DNA of 40,669 nucleotides, taken from a virus. The stretch lies in the IMG/VR virus record IMGVR_UViG_3300042868_008932, positions 1-40,669 of that record. One strand, 5' to 3'. Position 1 is the stretch's first letter. Each line of letters begins with the position of its first letter. The notes beneath the pieces were generated by a model that saw only the letters and a program-made list of their open reading frames with translations, was not told the origin of the DNA and searched no databases. Positions 7,955 to 33,579 of this stretch are shown piece by piece. Both the position numbers and the translations under genes were made by a program.

Positions 7955-8323
7955 TTATTGGAAAATATCTAAAGTACAAACCGTATTATCATTGGTACCT
8001 GGGGCCATATCCCATTGGACTCCGGTGGCATACTGGCCGTTCCAGGAAAAGCCAATAACCTCAAAGGTTGATGGGTCAATAAACTGGAGAGTGTAAGGGC
8101 CACCATAGGAGTTGAACCAGTTCGGTGGAAGTTCATCCAGAGGAATGTCAATAAGGCCATCCTCTACTACAATGCTCAGTTCAAATGAGGCATTATTGTT
8201 CTTGGTCATCCTAACCCGGATAACCGGATCAATGTAGTCATTAGGGACTTCGACCCAAAACTCCGTGCAACAACCTATGATGGGTTGGCAGATGACCATA
8301 TTATTCTTGCAACAATTTGCCAT
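7955..8323 (-). CDS. hypothetical virion-region protein (122 aa)
   Basis: The best start is the ATG at 8323 (MANCCKNNMVICQPIIGCC), which overlaps the terminase stop by 23 bp; longer readings from upstream non-ATG codons lie wholly inside the terminase gene. The N-terminus holds five Cys within 17 residues, and the rest is beta-rich (PPNWFNSYGGPYTLQFIDPS). It lies between terminase and the membrane protein and is probably co-transcribed with both. I do not recognise a family. A small structural or connector protein would fit the place. Confidence 0.6.
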   Translation of the reverse strand: MANCCKNNMVICQPIIGCCTEFWVEVPNDYIDPVIRVRMTKNNNASFELSIVVEDGLIDIPLDELPPNWFNSYGGPYTLQFIDPSTFEVIGFSWNGQYATGVQWDMAPGTNDNTVCTLDIFQ

Positions 8324-9641
8324 TGAATTTCTGAATGTTGTATTCGCTTGCAATTTCATAAAAATTCGCAAAAGAAAAATATCTCCAAGCATCCAATGCG
8401 TGGGACTTGTCTGGATTCTTCTGCTTCCAGGTATCAAGGCTAATCCTCCGGTCTACCTTGGCCTCCTTAAAATCGGCTATCAGAGCCTGATTGGATTCGG
8501 AGCCAATCTGGATCTTACACTTCCTGAATATGAGGGTATCCACAATCCTGGTATTAAGGTGACTTGGGGATGCTCGCATTATCTGCAAATTCATATCCGG
8601 TAGGTTCATAAAGTTGGCAATAAGCTGGTATGCCGACATATTCTGGGTAGTGAAGGCAGACCTTGCTTGTCCTGCCGGGTCACCATTAACCACATAGCGC
8701 ATTCCAGGAAATTCCTGCTTAATCATATTGCACAAATCCCCCAGGTCTCCGTGCCGGTAGGTCTTGATGACATTTATGGTTCCATAGTACTTATGGCCAG
8801 GAGCATTCTTCGAAAACTGGATGGCCACACAAGTATTGGTAATGTTAAAGTCAAAGGTTAGGTATAGTGGGTAATCTGGATGGGCCTTCAGGAATCCTTC
8901 CACAATATGTTCCTTCGGGTCGAAGTATTGGACATACAATGTCTCCCTATCCCAGACTCCCCAGTTGCCATTGGCATATACATCCCAGTAAGTATAATCC
9001 ACATCCCGAAGGGCCTCCATCCTGAGAGGATATTCCTTGTCCAGAAAACGATAGCAATCCTTGTAGGTCGAATGTAGGATCAGGATTTTCTCCTTCTCAA
9101 TCTCAGGTGGTTTGTCGAAGAACCGTTCCTTAATCCAATGGCTATCGGATACCGGGTTAAAGGTCAGGAAGAACCTCTTCTGGTGCTTGGATATACCACG
9201 GAGACGAAGGGTAACCTGGATGAAGTCCTCCTTGGTTAACTCGGTTGCCTCTTCCACCCAGATATACTTGGCTTGGGCAAGTGACTTGAGTTTCTCAGGG
9301 TTATCCACACCCATAAAGATTATCTTATTCGACCTGGACCTAAACTCAAAGATTCCATCATAGGCGGTAATCAAGTCACCGAGTCCCCACTCGTAAATCT
9401 TATTCTTAAAGTCCATATAGACCGAAGTCCTGATGGTGGCTGCTACCTTACGAAGAACAACGAATGTCTCATTCTCATTCTCATCGTGGTTAAGCAGTTC
9501 ACTCAGGTAGAACTGGATCATTGTCTGGGACTTTCCAGACCCGGCACCACCATAAAGTATATTATAAACCTTTGGCCTTGTGATGGCCGGAAGATATTTA
9601 TTATTCCAAAGTTCTGAGTTACTCAGGTCGAGAGTCGGCAT
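8301..9641 (-). CDS. terL: terminase large subunit
   Basis: This is the packaging motor that cuts and pumps DNA into the prohead. The ATPase domain has Walker A GGAGSGKS (residues 31-38), Walker B YIWVEEA (126-132) and the coupling motif LTFNP (159-163). The RNase-H-like nuclease domain carries acidic residues D264 (LTFDFN), D321 (NGDPAG) and D417 (SHALDAWRYF). At 446 residues it is of normal length for the PBSX-type terminase family. The start overlaps the upstream 103-residue gene by 23 bp. The block is transcribed with ThyX and small genes. Confidence 0.95.
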   Translation of the reverse strand: MPTLDLSNSELWNNKYLPAITRPKVYNILYGGAGSGKSQTMIQFYLSELLNHDENENETFVVLRKVAATIRTSVYMDFKNKIYEWGLGDLITAYDGIFEFRSRSNKIIFMGVDNPEKLKSLAQAKYIWVEEATELTKEDFIQVTLRLRGISKHQKRFFLTFNPVSDSHWIKERFFDKPPEIEKEKILILHSTYKDCYRFLDKEYPLRMEALRDVDYTYWDVYANGNWGVWDRETLYVQYFDPKEHIVEGFLKAHPDYPLYLTFDFNITNTCVAIQFSKNAPGHKYYGTINVIKTYRHGDLGDLCNMIKQEFPGMRYVVNGDPAGQARSAFTTQNMSAYQLIANFMNLPDMNLQIMRASPSHLNTRIVDTLIFRKCKIQIGSESNQALIADFKEAKVDRRISLDTWKQKNPDKSHALDAWRYFSFANFYEIASEYNIQKFNGKLLQE

Positions 9642-11499: not shown

Positions 11500-11701
11500 A
11501 GGTTTCGTTGTAATATTGTTCTCCACTGATAAATTCACCTAATTCATTTGTTGAACAATCTTCATTGGCTAATATTATCTGCTCCTTCTCCATTGCTTTG
11601 GCTTGCTGAAATATTTCTTCTTTATGCCATATAAAGCAATCTTGCCACTCAGGGGAATTAACCTTTTCAATTAGCCATTCTAATGCCGTTTGCTTACTCA
11701 T
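11486..11701 (-). CDS. small phage protein with EWL...EGEQYYNETY-type pattern (71 aa)
   Basis: It starts MSKQTALEWLIEKVNSPEWQ and ends with GEQYYNETYGKA. Many short phage proteins share a helical EWL N-terminus, an AKxMEKEQI core and this C-terminal tail, but their role is unknown. It overlaps the DUF5681 gene by 8 bp. The recurring tail makes it a genuine gene despite its size. Confidence 0.7.
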   Translation of the reverse strand: MSKQTALEWLIEKVNSPEWQDCFIWHKEEIFQQAKAMEKEQIILANEDCSTNELGEFISGEQYYNETYGKA

Positions 11702-12095
11702 CGTCTTCGTCTTCTTCTTGTCTTTTAAGCTTTATGGCCTCTGGACTCTCCGGCAACTGGTGGGTATGAGGGTTGCCAATTTCCAGTACTTCCTCGGCAG
11801 GAGGCAATGGCATAATCACCTGAGTGAAGGTTGTCATAATGTCGGTTTCCTGCTTTGGCTTTCCATAGGCACGATCCAAAAGCAACTCCGCTGCCCTGGT
11901 ATCTCCCTTCAATGCCTTGGCCCGGATGGCCATCAGTACTACCTCCATTGCCGACTTGCCATCCTTAGTATCACCTAAGACACTAATTAATAACTCTTTA
12001 AGGTCTGGAAGTTTCTTTGGCCTACCCTTTGGATTACCAGATTGACCCTTCTTCCATTGATAATTTTTTATCCTTTCAACATCACCTCTTGCCAT
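11694..12095 (-). CDS. DUF5681 protein, candidate small terminase / DNA-binding
   Basis: The N-terminal KKGQSGNPKGRPKKLPDL (about residues 14-31) is the DUF5681 signature, a basic Gly/Pro-rich DNA-binding-like segment. A helical middle (LLDRAYGKPKQE) and an acidic C-terminus follow. Such proteins often lie upstream of terminase genes and are suspected to act as small terminase subunits or DNA adaptors. Here it lies in the operon that leads to terL. The domain call is strong, the packaging role is an inference. Confidence 0.8.
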   Translation of the reverse strand: MARGDVERIKNYQWKKGQSGNPKGRPKKLPDLKELLISVLGDTKDGKSAMEVVLMAIRAKALKGDTRAAELLLDRAYGKPKQETDIMTTFTQVIMPLPPAEEVLEIGNPHTHQLPESPEAIKLKRQEEDEDDE

Positions 12096-12139: not shown

Positions 12140-12862
12140 TTAGAAAATTAAAACCCCATTCCTTTTCAATTCGGTCTGTGGGTACTTTTTGAACCATTCA
12201 TCCACGATTTCTGTGGCCAGTCTGGCCGTGGTTACTACCCCACAATACCGGATATTCAGTTCATTAGAAGCAATAAGACCTTCGGCCCCCATTGCAGAAT
12301 AATCCAGAAAAGTTTCAGTAAAACCCATATCGGCAGAGGTAAAGGCTGGCTTGTCTCCATCCAGAACCGAGGCAATATGATTTTCATCACTTCCATCACC
12401 AATCAAAATCCGATGGACTCCGGCAAACTCAATAATATCTCCTTTCTTAAAATCCTCGTCCACCTCCCTCGTTTCAACAAATGGAATTTCTTTTTCATTA
12501 TCTGCAAACAATGGAACATCCAGTCCCCACTCATCCAGAGGACAGTCATCCCAGTTGTTGGCAAGATCATCCCAGTCCCACTCACCGAAGCTTGCATTGT
12601 CCTTTATGACAAACTCCTTCTGCCTTGCCTCATCCCAGTCAACCATAACCACCGGGACCTGCTTCCAACCGGCCTCCTTCATAGCTTTAAGGCGCATATT
12701 GCCTCCCAGGACTACCATATCCTTGTTCACCACAATGGGCCTTACATCGGCCATCTCTGGGAAATCCTTCAGACTTTTAACCAGTTTGAAGAACTTCTCA
12801 TCCCGGATTACCCTTGGGTTTGACTGGTTTGTCTTCACTTTACCTATTGCGACCTTCTCCAT
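12140..12862 (-). CDS. ParB-like domain fused to a collapsed DNA methylase (pseudo-enzyme)
   Basis: The ParB/Srx-like domain spans residues about 1-75 with the VVLGGNMRLKA motif (50-60), followed by DNASFGEWDWDDL and WGLDVP, as in ParB-methylase fusion proteins. After HRILIGDGSDENHIASVLDG (150-169) one expects the catalytic motif DPPY, but SADMGF stands there. About 10 residues later comes YSAMGAEGLIAS in place of the SAM-binding FxGxG motif, then RYCGVV...TELKRNG like the family's C-terminus. So both ends are kept and the central methylase body (some 200 residues) is missing, giving only 240 residues. Start is the ATG at 12862; a 255-residue reading would begin inside the promoter (12876-12907). 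Confidence 0.8.
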   Translation of the reverse strand: MEKVAIGKVKTNQSNPRVIRDEKFFKLVKSLKDFPEMADVRPIVVNKDMVVLGGNMRLKAMKEAGWKQVPVVMVDWDEARQKEFVIKDNASFGEWDWDDLANNWDDCPLDEWGLDVPLFADNEKEIPFVETREVDEDFKKGDIIEFAGVHRILIGDGSDENHIASVLDGDKPAFTSADMGFTETFLDYSAMGAEGLIASNELNIRYCGVVTTARLATEIVDEWFKKYPQTELKRNGVLIF

Positions 12863-12917: not shown

Positions 12918-12944
12918 AAAAAAAAGACCGGCCATTGGCCAGTC
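12918..12944 (-). terminator. rho-independent terminator (second of a tandem pair)
   Basis: Minus-strand stem GACTGGCC/GGCCGGTC (12937-12944 and 12926-12933) with loop AAT, followed by eight T. It lies upstream of the ParB-like gene and downstream of a possible promoter at 12976-12983 with no ORF between. Confidence 0.75.
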
Positions 12945-12975
12945 CCTTTTCGTATTTTTTCTAAACACCAAAGCA

Positions 12976-12983
12976 CAAATGTA
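12976..12983 (-). promoter_or_regulatory. possible -7 box of a short non-coding transcript
   Basis: TACATTTG on the minus strand is a full match to the -7 consensus. At N19 upstream is TTC instead of TTG. Transcription from here would meet the terminator at 12944-12918 after about 50 nt, with no start codon between. Confidence 0.35.
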
Positions 12984-13005
12984 TAAAAACTTGCAAATAT
13001 TGGAA

Positions 13006-13033
13006 CAAAAAAAAGGTTAGCCATTGACCAACC
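13006..13033 (-). terminator. rho-independent terminator (first of a tandem pair)
   Basis: Minus-strand stem GGTTGGTC/GGCTAACC (13026-13033 and 13015-13022) with loop AAT and two G-U pairs, followed by eight T. It ends the 13-14 kb minus-strand gene cluster. Loop and stem core resemble the terminator at 12918-12944. Confidence 0.75.
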
Positions 13034-13061: not shown

Positions 13062-13295
13062 TCAGATTCTTGTAAACTTCTTAGCCTGGCTCTTCACACT
13101 CTTCTTCCCTACACACCCCCAGGCTTGTCTGGACAAATCATTTGGGCAAGGACCCTTCTTACACTTCTTAATCCCGCTGGATCTGGCACAATAAGCATCT
13201 CCTTTCTTCGTCCCAGGAGCAATGGAATAACCCTTGGCACCGAACTTAACCGTACGGCCTCCAGACTTTACCGAATATTTCTTAGCAACTGCCAT
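13062..13295 (-). CDS. basic Cys-containing hypothetical protein (77 aa)
   Basis: It starts MAVAKKYSVKSGGRTVKFGA and is very rich in Lys, Gly and Ser. It has four Cys (YCARSSGIKKCKKGPCPN...WGC) that could form a zinc site. A nucleic-acid-binding role would fit its charge but is a guess. It is the last gene of the 14.2-13.1 kb cluster, followed by a terminator. Confidence 0.6.
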   Translation of the reverse strand: MAVAKKYSVKSGGRTVKFGAKGYSIAPGTKKGDAYCARSSGIKKCKKGPCPNDLSRQAWGCVGKKSVKSQAKKFTRI

Positions 13296-13455: not shown

Positions 13456-14034
13456 TCAAATATACCTATGAAAATCATTCTTACCACCTTTCTGATGGAC
13501 CCAGGATCCATATCTGGCAACCTTGTCCTTACCAAACACATCATCCACGGCCTTCTTCACACCTGGCCAATCTGGATAATCGTGGCCAGACAAAACACCT
13601 CCAGGTTTTACCTTGCAATACCAAGCCTTTATGTCTGCCAATACATTCTCGTAATCGTGAGAAGCATCTATAAACACAAAATCCAGACTCTCATCCTCAA
13701 AGGTCTCAGCAGCTTCAAGGCTCGTTGTCCTGAACGGTATAATCACACTACTCAATGGCTCAATGTTGTGCAGAAACTCCTGGTATAACCCATCGTCATT
13801 CAGGATATTCATACCCTGATGCTCATCAGATCCTTTCCAGGTATCCACGCATACCACATCAATCTGCTTACCAGAATTCATTACCTCAACCCCAAGGTAT
13901 ACACTTGACCTTCCTCGCCAACATCCTACCTCAACGAACCTACTGCCCGATGGGAAATACTTTACGGCACCTTTGTAGATCCTTGGATAACTGAACCAGT
14001 CCTCCCCGATACTCTGGTAGTAATGCTTTATCAT
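13456..14034 (-). CDS. class I SAM-dependent methyltransferase (Methyltransf_24-like)
   Basis: A Rossmann-type methyltransferase of 192 residues. Motif I is FVEVGCWRG (residues 33-41), an acidic residue follows at VCVDTW (D64), and FVFIDASHDYENVLADI plus VKPGGVLSGHDY match the Methyltransf_24 family, which often modifies sugars or small molecules. The start overlaps the upstream gene (ATGA). The substrate is unknown. A role in modifying surface or virion glycans, along with the GT25 gene at 29 kb, is only a suggestion. Confidence 0.85.
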   Translation of the reverse strand: MIKHYYQSIGEDWFSYPRIYKGAVKYFPSGSRFVEVGCWRGRSSVYLGVEVMNSGKQIDVVCVDTWKGSDEHQGMNILNDDGLYQEFLHNIEPLSSVIIPFRTTSLEAAETFEDESLDFVFIDASHDYENVLADIKAWYCKVKPGGVLSGHDYPDWPGVKKAVDDVFGKDKVARYGSWVHQKGGKNDFHRYI

Positions 14035-15013: not shown

Positions 15014-15066
15014 CTTTGGTATTACATTCCTTAGAATGCGATACATTGGAACAATGAATACCAAAG
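15014..15066. repeat. second 25-bp repeat copy within a possible three-way junction
   Basis: Outer arms CTTTGGTATT (15014-15023) and AATACCAAAG (15057-15066) pair perfectly over 10 bp. Inside are two further hairpins, CATTCcttaGAATG (15025-15038) and CATTGgaaCAATG (15044-15056). The first 25 bases repeat 14928-14952. It could form a cruciform in DNA or a structured RNA. Confidence 0.7.
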
Positions 15067-15154
15067 AACAAAGGTATACCATAGGTAAAAAAGGGAAGGT
15101 TTTAAACCGGCCAAAAAAAATTTGAAATAGTTTTTACGGATCCGGTAATAAGTA

Positions 15155-15395
15155 AAGCCAAGGAAGCCCGGTAACCAGGAAGCCAAGGAAGCCAAGGAAA
15201 CCCGGTAACCAGGTGACCAGGTGACCAGGTGACCAGGAAGCCAGGTGACCAGGAAGCCAGGTGACCAGGAAGCCAGGTGACCAGGTAACCAGGTGACCAG
15301 GAAGCCAGGTGACCAGGTAACCAGGTGACCAGGAGACCAGGAAGCCAGGTGACCAGGAAGCAAGGAAGCCAGGAAGCCAGGAAGCCAGGTGACGG
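15155..15395. repeat. tandem array of about 30 degenerate 8-bp units
   Basis: Units are mainly TGACCAGG, AAGCCAGG and TAACCAGG, with a few 9-bp AAGCCAAGG units at the left end. Each standard unit carries CCAGG, and the TGA/TAA units create GGTNACC palindromes. All frames of the minus strand are open here because the 24-bp period avoids stops, giving LVTWSPGHLVTWLPG-like false proteins. It is directly followed by two terminators. Confidence 0.92.
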
Positions 15396-15403
15396 CCTGA
15401 AAT

Positions 15404-15430
15404 CAAAAAGCCCGGGCGAAATACCGGGCC
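15404..15430 (-). terminator. rho-independent terminator, distal of a pair
   Basis: Minus-strand stem GCCCGG/CCGGGC (15424-15429 and 15410-15415) with an 8-nt loop, then TTTTT. It backs up the terminator at 15433-15456 after the GP88 gene. Confidence 0.75.
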
Positions 15431-31970: not shown

Positions 31971-32092
31971 GACTTGGATCAAACGATGTAGACCGGGTAA
32001 TAAAGGAGACCATAGCCAATATCTTCCTTTACTCCCTTTATGCCTTCTTCTTTGGCTTACTGGCCTTTAAACTTTGGATGAAAATCAGATGA
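31967..32092 (+). CDS. small single-pass membrane protein (41 aa)
   Basis: ATG at 31967 overlaps the previous stop, and the TGA at 32092 overlaps the methyltransferase ATG, so it is tightly coupled to both. It starts MRLGSNDVDRVIKETIANIF and contains one membrane segment (about residues 19-36, IFLYSLYAFFFGLLAFKL) followed by a basic end. Function unknown. Confidence 0.6.
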   Translation: MRLGSNDVDRVIKETIANIFLYSLYAFFFGLLAFKLWMKIR

Positions 32093-33579
32093 AATACGGA
32101 TCTGTATGTTCAGGAATCGAAGCAGCTTCGGTAGCCTGGGAAAGCCTTGGATGGGAGGCACAATGGTACTCAGAAATTGAGCATTTCCCATCAGCAGTAT
32201 TATCACACCGATTCCCAACGGTGCCAAACTTGGGAGATATGACTAAAATTCACGAAACAGAAACATTCAATGATACAACTATCGATCTTCTCGTCGGAGG
32301 TACCCCCTGCCAATCCTTCTCAGTCGCTGGCCTTCGAAAAGGGCTTGCTGATCCACGAGGAAACCTTATGCTTACCTTTCTCTCTTTGGCTGAAAGAAAA
32401 AAGCCAAGGTGGATTGTCTGGGAAAATGTCCCCGGTGTGTTGTCAAGTAACGGAGGAAGGGATTTTGGAACCTTCCTCGCTGCGTTGGGGCAACTCGGGT
32501 ATGGGTTTGCCTACCGAATTCTTGACGCTCAGTACTTCGGAGTCGCACAAAGGCGCAGAAGAGTCTTTGTTGTCGGATACCTTGGAGACTGGAGACCTTG
32601 CGCCTCGGTATTATTTGAGCAAGATTGCTTGTCAGGGCATTCTAAGAAGAGCAGAGAAAAGAGGAAAGCAACTTCCTCAGATGCTCAAGGAGGCTCTGGA
32701 GTCGGTAGTCAATGGTGGGATGGTGGACAAACTTCAGGGACATTAACAAAACAGAATGCCAATGGTGCCCAAAGGATGCCTGATAAGGATAACTTTGGGG
32801 CGGTTCTTGAACCGGTCACTCACGCATTCAAAGTTCGTGGAGGAGTCGAAGAAAACTCCGGTGAACAAGGTGGTACTCCTGGGAAGAAAGCAGGAAAGGG
32901 ATACCTTGGTTCAGACGAACTTGCGTTTACCATTGGGGCAACCCAGGATCAACAGATAGCGCAACCAATTGCCTATTCCTTTGATAGTCTTGCTTCCAAT
33001 AGTATGAAGTCAAGCAATCCTAATTCAGGATGCCGTGAGGTGGAGACAAGCAGCACAATTGATACTACAATACCAACCCCTTCAAAGAATCAAGGAGGGA
33101 TTGCTATAGCGCAACCAATTGCCTATGAGAATCACGCACAAGACTCAAGGGTAAGGGAGATTGGAGATACCTGCACTACCGTTACTTCCAATTATGGTAT
33201 GGGTGGTGGTAATGTCCCACTTTTGGGGCAACCTCCAACAATAATTGACAGGGCAGCTTTCAACCAGGGGCAGAATGCTCAATATGACATTAAGATTGAG
33301 GAAGGTCAAACAATGCCATCTCTTGTTGCAAGAGGCCCACACGGAGTAGGACAACCAAAGCCACCAACAATGGCCATCCGCAGACTTACTCCAAGAGAAT
33401 GCGAAAGGCTTCAAGGCTTTCCTGATGATTGGACTCTTATCCCATACCGGAATAAGTCAGCAGACCAATGCCCTGATGGGCCAAGGTACAAGGCTTGCGG
33501 AAACTCAATGGCAGTCCCGGTAATGAGATGGATTGGCCAAAGGATTGAGATGGTTGAGAAACTTATCTCATCCCAGTAA
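32089..33579 (+). CDS. C5 cytosine DNA methyltransferase (496 aa)
   Basis: It methylates cytosine at C5 in a specific site. Motifs: I SVCSGIEAASVAW (5-17), IV GGTPCQSFS with catalytic Cys74, VI ENV (112-114), VIII QRRRRVF (154-160), then a long variable target-recognition region, IX RRLTPRECERLQGFPDDW and X GNSMAVPVMRW near the C-terminus. All key residues are kept, so it should be active, probably guarding phage DNA from restriction. A 21-bp direct repeat (32956-32976 and 33106-33126) encodes AQPIAY twice. A second gene overlaps it in another frame at 32270-32746. Confidence 0.93.
   Translation: MKYGSVCSGIEAASVAWESLGWEAQWYSEIEHFPSAVLSHRFPTVPNLGDMTKIHETETFNDTTIDLLVGGTPCQSFSVAGLRKGLADPRGNLMLTFLSLAERKKPRWIVWENVPGVLSSNGGRDFGTFLAALGQLGYGFAYRILDAQYFGVAQRRRRVFVVGYLGDWRPCASVLFEQDCLSGHSKKSREKRKATSSDAQGGSGVGSQWWDGGQTSGTLTKQNANGAQRMPDKDNFGAVLEPVTHAFKVRGGVEENSGEQGGTPGKKAGKGYLGSDELAFTIGATQDQQIAQPIAYSFDSLASNSMKSSNPNSGCREVETSSTIDTTIPTPSKNQGGIAIAQPIAYENHAQDSRVREIGDTCTTVTSNYGMGGGNVPLLGQPPTIIDRAAFNQGQNAQYDIKIEEGQTMPSLVARGPHGVGQPKPPTMAIRRLTPRECERLQGFPDDWTLIPYRNKSADQCPDGPRYKACGNSMAVPVMRWIGQRIEMVEKLISSQ
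32270..32746 (+). CDS. overprinted gene inside the C5 methyltransferase (158 aa)
   Basis: It is read in the +1 frame relative to the methyltransferase from ATG 32270 to a stop at 32746. The protein has LSGKMSPVCCQVTEEGILEP (about 49-68), RWGNSGMGLPTEFLTLSTSE (about 72-91), and LSDTLETGDLAPRYYLSKIA then CQGILRRAEKRGKQLP. From memory, this NSGM...LTLSTSE...LETG...RYYLS..AC.GILRRAEKRGK...LP series is shared by many phage proteins annotated as hypothetical. Shadow frames do not normally carry such an ordered motif series. Function unknown. Confidence 0.62.
   Translation: MIQLSIFSSEVPPANPSQSLAFEKGLLIHEETLCLPFSLWLKEKSQGGLSGKMSPVCCQVTEEGILEPSSLRWGNSGMGLPTEFLTLSTSESHKGAEESLLSDTLETGDLAPRYYLSKIACQGILRRAEKRGKQLPQMLKEALESVVNGGMVDKLQGH

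Follow-up and report, generated by a model that had tools for sequence, protein, structure and literature searches.

A ParB-methylase fusion without its enzyme body, maintained by selection beside the terminase genes of a phage lineage

The ParB-short gene of IMG/VR virus record IMGVR_UViG_3300042868_008932 (40,669 bases; the whole record was analysed and is called the window here) probably encodes a maintained pseudo-methyltransferase of the ParB-Tls locus, in which a basic ParB_N domain would handle DNA and an acidic mini-domain would dock partners. The protein goes back, by a single descent, to a ParB-N6/N4-methyltransferase fusion whose central body was lost in frame, the lost body corresponding to the variable part of related full-length proteins. 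A first-pass annotation had already described a maintained pseudo-enzyme and not a decaying gene, which is borne out by the methylase-derived C-terminal end, the existence of other copies and C-domain omega values of 0-0.12. The features concerned are as follows.

8301..9641, minus strand: TerL, terminase large subunit (PF04466, E 6.8e-44)
11694..12095, minus strand: DUF5681 protein, the constant next gene (PF18932, E 4.9e-18; synteny)
12140..12862, minus strand: ParB-short gene, 240 aa, ParB_N domain plus vestigial methyltransferase C-domain
12143..12457, minus strand: C-domain, residues 136-240, two N6/N4 methyltransferase ends joined, compact half-Rossmann fold
12224..12244, minus strand: CGVVTTA at the YGMELDP position of relatives (alignment), acidic motif II residue lost
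12281..12298, minus strand: S189-AMGAE at the position of FxGxGS, the SAM-binding motif I (alignment), preceding D187 kept
12320..12331, minus strand: D178-M-G-F181 at the DPPY position of full-length relatives (alignment), the missing body of 114-172 aa beginning just after
12458..12589, minus strand: acidic linker, residues 92-135, where the model is partly of low confidence
12590..12862, minus strand: ParB_N domain, residues 1-91 (PF02195, E 1e-6), GGNMRxxA box intact, pI 9.6
12918..12944, minus strand: hairpin GACTGGCC-AAT-GGCCGGTC plus T8, between the promoter-like box and the start codon
12976..13009, minus strand: promoter-like box TTTG-N22-TANNTTTG, Bacteroidota-type
13062..13295, minus strand: highly conserved 77-aa gene ahead of ParB-short, 93-97% identical between the closer short-form phages

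The 240-residue minus-strand frame opens with an ATG at 12862, and both the reading frame and the N-terminal ParB motif are intact, as first described. PF02195 matches residues 2-89 with 29.1 bits against a curated cut-off of 26.3, the GxxR box is present, and GGNMR is invariant. In a Pfam scan with E values up to 1, PF02195 was the only match to ParB-short and no ParB helix-turn-helix was found; TIGR00180 reached 18.3 bits, below its cut-off of 58.45. The best phrog was phrog_498 'DNA methyltransferase' (E 8e-28), with a match confined to residues 1-176 that ends just ahead of the expected DPPY site. PF01555 matched neither ParB-short nor anything else in the window record and matches the full-length relative L012 with an E of 3.8e-28; no full copy of a ParB-methylase was found elsewhere in the window. 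Across the short forms the C-domain is acidic (pI 4.5-5.7) and ParB_N basic (pI 9.0-9.6). Since the C-domain is acidic and the target-recognition region has been lost, any DNA binding must come from ParB_N, and a DNA-binding C-domain is disfavoured by its pI.

Relatives fetched by ParB-short were either short forms (about 240 aa), full-length ParB-methylases (about 360-430 aa) or ParB proteins with other tails. From 49 full-length proteins, the stretch preceding DPPY and the stretch following FxGxG were each compared, profile against profile, with the matching segments of the short forms, giving P values of 5e-14 for the N-ends and 4e-7 for the C-ends, with crossed pairs near zero. Both ends of a ParB-methylase fusion are thus recognisable, as had been claimed: the N-end scored 62.4 and the C-end 36.5, against maxima of 15.7 and 16.7, respectively, in 200 column shuffles. 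A profile built from the short C-ends only and run over the 4042 ORFs of all fetched loci recovered the short forms first and then methylase C-ends (best E 2e-5; one match is a 94-aa fragment). Beyond the short forms the matches were almost exclusively methylase C-ends, and down to an E of about 0.25 all of them were methylase C-ends in register. Chance resemblance of the C-end is ruled out by the shuffles and this ORF-wide search, and an unrelated C-terminal domain by the profile comparison, the alignment and the structure matches. Elsewhere, a C-domain query against phage records gave one weak partial match (E 0.2, a Streptococcus phage DNA methyltransferase), and a whole-protein query against plasmids matched four records, mostly methyltransferases plus a ParB-domain protein. 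No near-identical phage record was found, and two scans of bacterial genome contigs with short peptide patterns returned no relatives.

In a MAFFT alignment, short and full-length forms run together without a gap from FxGxG through the final NG. The reported replacement of DPPY and FxGxG is upheld: TDPPY aligns with ADMGF, FxGxGS with S189-AMGAE, and the acidic residue of motif II with V210. All three motif elements are absent from every short form in which the region is present, the DPPY site reading ADMGF, AEMSF, ASMPF, TEMPY, SEMPY, KEMPY or GSPAF. The loss between the ends is in frame as first proposed; the proposed size of about 200 residues was too large, the missing body measuring 114-172 residues (median 145). 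Likewise, the C-terminal 90 residues, first read as a methylase end, are indeed methylase-derived, with a recognisable C-end of only about 60 residues; residues 136-181 represent the other methylase end. Short and full-length forms alike have a nearly invariant GD..E and HR in the first hairpin, a nearly invariant D in motif I and a nearly invariant terminal NG, residues that are presumably structural rather than catalytic. Of the attributes of an N6/N4 methyltransferase, ParB-short therefore retains the common descent of the two ends and lacks the catalytic motif, the SAM-binding motif, the acidic motif II residue and a PF01555 match.

Among full-length ParB-methylases (L009, L012, L014, L016-L018, L020-L023 and L030), the ends are 83-86% identical (medians) and the bodies have a median identity of 19%, as if the specificity body were exchanged by recombination between conserved ends. 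Such an exchange could explain the origin of a body-less form.

The structural models agree with this derivation. In the AlphaFold2 model of the whole protein (mean pLDDT 73.5), an alpha/beta C-domain stands apart from a ParB/Srx domain. VIA-align placed residues 1-91 onto CTP-bound Myxococcus ParB (Z 13.4) and residues 149-233 onto the M1.HpyAVI and TTHA0409 methylases (Z 5.0-5.5), with 72-80 matched residues scattered across the entire methylase chain, for example residues 1-232 of 5hek. Modelled alone, the C-domain was compact (pLDDT 82.7, pTM 0.74), and its top VIA matches were eight beta-class amino-methyltransferases (Z 4.3-5.2), the best matches taking in about 75-80 residues distributed along the full methyltransferase chain; Foldseek alone gave no significant match to the C-domain, the best hit being to the same beta-class methylases at E 0.9. 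In these models the retained segments correspond to that portion of the sheet on which methylases bear DPPY, motif I and motif II. Taken alone, Z values of about 5 are modest, and because full-length methylases were included in the input alignments, the structures are consistent with the sequence result, not independent of it.

The same short form was found in related phages, in 12 further complete copies (L002-L008, L045, L087, L088, L091 and L103) and in partial ones (L011/L093, L092, L099 and L100). All 13 complete copies are free of internal stops, and the window protein shares 55-81% amino-acid identity with the others. In a ParB_N tree the short forms make up one group (support 82/87), arising by a single change in 81% of bootstrap trees, and methylase and ParB-only states switch at least 5 times by well-supported branches. 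Nei-Gojobori estimates for five close pairs of short forms gave C-domain omega values in the range quoted above, similar to those of the ParB domain: dN was 0 at a dS of 0.36 for L003/L007, and omega was 0.03 for L002/L004, 0.09 for L045/L091, 0.08 for L008/L088 and 0.12 for L008/L087. The short form is therefore a single lineage under strong purifying selection, and the dN/dS check suggested at first shows a constrained C-domain in a form that is neither unique nor drifting. TerL identity to the window is 78-95% within the short lineage, 65-71% for the next relatives, among them a ParB clade with a QFNSEE tail, and about 58-60% for methylase-bearing phages. As the QFNSEE-tail clade is nearer by TerL than the methylase-bearing phages, the ancestral state is not directly observed at the nearest node.

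The proximity to the terminase operon that was noted at first is supported. In every locus extending far enough, ParB-short lies directly before DUF5681 with TerL downstream, and a variable set of small genes lies between DUF5681 and TerL; ParB-short is separated from the DUF5681 frame by 27-54 nt where the frames do not overlap. The DUF5681 protein is possibly the small terminase subunit, for which a sub-threshold phrog match (E 0.21) was obtained. It is 129-135 aa long in the short lineage versus mostly 98-122 aa in the other phages compared (except L042 and L050). With ParB upstream of TerL, this place is the known ParB-Tls locus, whose earlier description in the literature includes a proposed role of ParB in guiding the modification machinery while DNA is being packaged (PMC6536676).

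Across the TerL family, a ParB_N gene is found here again and again, each time with a different set of partners, and a few loci are without it. The partner may be a fused N6/N4 methylase, of which several body types occur, or a methylase of a second type, or DUF4417; alternatively, ParB carries a tail of about 50 aa and is followed by Mom, a TAGT glycosyltransferase, a C5 methylase, FkbM plus Tet_JBP, or an ABC-GNAT protein. In the ParB-only phages, the type of tail matches the type of modification gene directly downstream, for each of these five kinds (L036 2700-4093, L168 1395-2710, L056 4207-5800, L131 2547-4615 and L121 495-2074), the stop of one gene overlapping the start of the next or lying right beside it; a tail and its enzyme may be exchanged together, as a single cassette in which the tail would serve as a docking module. 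In the short lineage, a modification enzyme is neither fused to ParB nor found between ParB and TerL: none known was recognised between DUF5681 and TerL by homology or by reading, with a profile scan covering part of the small genes. The slot is also empty in the QFNSEE-tail clade, so two lineages have kept ParB with no enzyme in the slot.

On this basis, the basic ParB_N domain, with its ParB/sulfiredoxin fold and GxxR pocket, would bind nucleotide and handle DNA, and the half of the Rossmann sheet left over from the methylase would form a compact acidic mini-domain unable to methylate. The DNA-binding adaptor suggested at first is thus a plausible role. This mini-domain may be a docking or dimerisation platform for partners from the packaging module, and DUF5681 and TerL are named as candidates because they are the constant neighbours. 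A further-reaching version, which we put forward as a possibility short of probable, is that a single in-frame step emptied a DNA methyltransferase and turned it into a non-enzymatic packaging adaptor, the core task of ParB at this locus being packaging-related and modification enzymes its optional cargo.

Other methylases are present in these genomes. The window encodes a C5 cytosine DNA methylase at 32089-33546, within 32074-33579, on the plus strand (PF00145, E 1e-58) and a conserved Methyltransf_24 protein at 13456-14034, and L103 carries a stand-alone N6/N4 DNA methylase at 1569-2366 on the minus strand, about 1.4 kb upstream of its short ParB gene. A DNA methyltransferase is encoded elsewhere in both near-complete short-form genomes (2/2), which leaves room for a role together with modification, and the C5 and N6/N4 enzymes make a trans-acting methylase the main alternative partner of the mini-domain. 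It is accordingly conceivable, if rather unlikely, that ParB-short is the DNA-loading subunit of a modification enzyme acting in trans (such as one of these three proteins), with the dead mini-domain as its docking site. Such a role would fit a locus where ParB otherwise has a modification enzyme fused to it or encoded after it, where the tail tracks the next enzyme and for which the literature proposal cited above was made. The enzymes encoded elsewhere, however, differ in type (C5 versus N6/N4) despite the conserved C-domain and lie outside the ParB operon, and phage DNA methylases are so common that finding one in each of two genomes carries little weight.

By analogy, ParB_N could itself be the active part, as an NTP-regulated nicking nuclease or an anti-restriction factor that the C-domain merely stabilises. 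Phage and plasmid ParB domains have been reported to nick DNA, including that of the Bacillus cereus adenine-methylase fusion Bce_0392 (PMC5512222), and the ParB box is intact in the short forms; the selection on the C-domain in close pairs is nevertheless stronger than a mere stabiliser needs, and we consider this reading improbable. More improbable still is a half-Rossmann domain with a newly gained small-molecule or nucleotide-binding function: lineage-specific conserved residues (LDYS, RY.G and W.KK.P) do stand in place of the old motifs, yet no ligand-binding family was matched and no recognisable pocket motif occurs among them. A decaying gene caught early, which the lost catalytic motifs might suggest, is contradicted by the selection test and by 13 complete, stop-free copies at the identities given above, and can practically be dismissed. 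We thus retain the maintained pseudo-methyltransferase with a docking mini-domain as the probable explanation.

Upstream of the gene, the promoter that was first called intact is weakly supported: the box is present, but it is not conserved in relatives, whereas the hairpin between it and the gene is conserved in the nearest of them. In the window, two hairpins with T-runs flank the box (12918-13033); close relatives conserve these hairpins, with changes that keep the base pairs, and they may constitute an attenuator or a tandem terminator. Across the whole window, TTTG-N18-22-TANNTTTG boxes occur 7 times versus 1.45 expected, a count reached in 0/100 shuffles, and this excess suggests a Bacteroidota host. 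Further upstream, at 15031-15406, overlapping ORFs of a short repeated peptide (GHLASWSPG / LVTWLPG type) mark a tandem-repeat stretch that is likely non-coding.

According to a 2025 paper (PMC12783734), what exactly the ParB domains that are linked to DNA methyltransferases do is still unknown. The two roles come apart in a lineage that has deleted the enzyme body but retains ParB and the methylase ends under selection, and this lineage offers a natural mutant for probing a non-modifying function. As the dead protein is kept intact by selection, the ParB protein of these environmental phages, whose hosts are probably Bacteroidota, appears to have a job other than DNA methylation. The C-domain, an enzyme fold cut to half and yet selected, also illustrates a structural route to pseudo-enzymes.

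The ParB-Tls locus and the ParB-methylase fusions are already known, and the body-less ParB-methylase is a new variant there. With the phage ParB-N6/N4 methyltransferase fusions (phrog_498), placed at the ParB-Tls locus by Iyer et al. 2013 as cited in PMC6536676, ParB-short shares the ParB_N domain, both methylase ends and the position before DUF5681 and TerL; unlike them, it has no DPPY, FxGxG or motif II acid, its body of about 145 aa is absent and its slot is empty. ParB proteins with a small tail and a separate modification gene (Mom, TAGT, C5-MTase or Tet_JBP) occupy the same place and likewise have a ParB_N without a catalytic domain of its own, whereas their tails of about 50 aa are not methylase-derived and the modification gene follows directly downstream. 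The CTP-binding chromosomal ParB proteins of M. xanthus (7bnr) and B. subtilis (6sdk) share the N-domain fold (Z ~13); in contrast to these, no helix-turn-helix or C-terminal dimer domain was found in ParB-short, and the canonical C-motif 2 is not recognisable by eye. Finally, half of the Rossmann sheet is held in common with the beta-class amino-methyltransferases M1.HpyAVI and TTHA0409 over the 72-80 matched residues, while the remainder of the sheet is missing from ParB-short, as are the target-recognition region and every catalytic motif of those enzymes.
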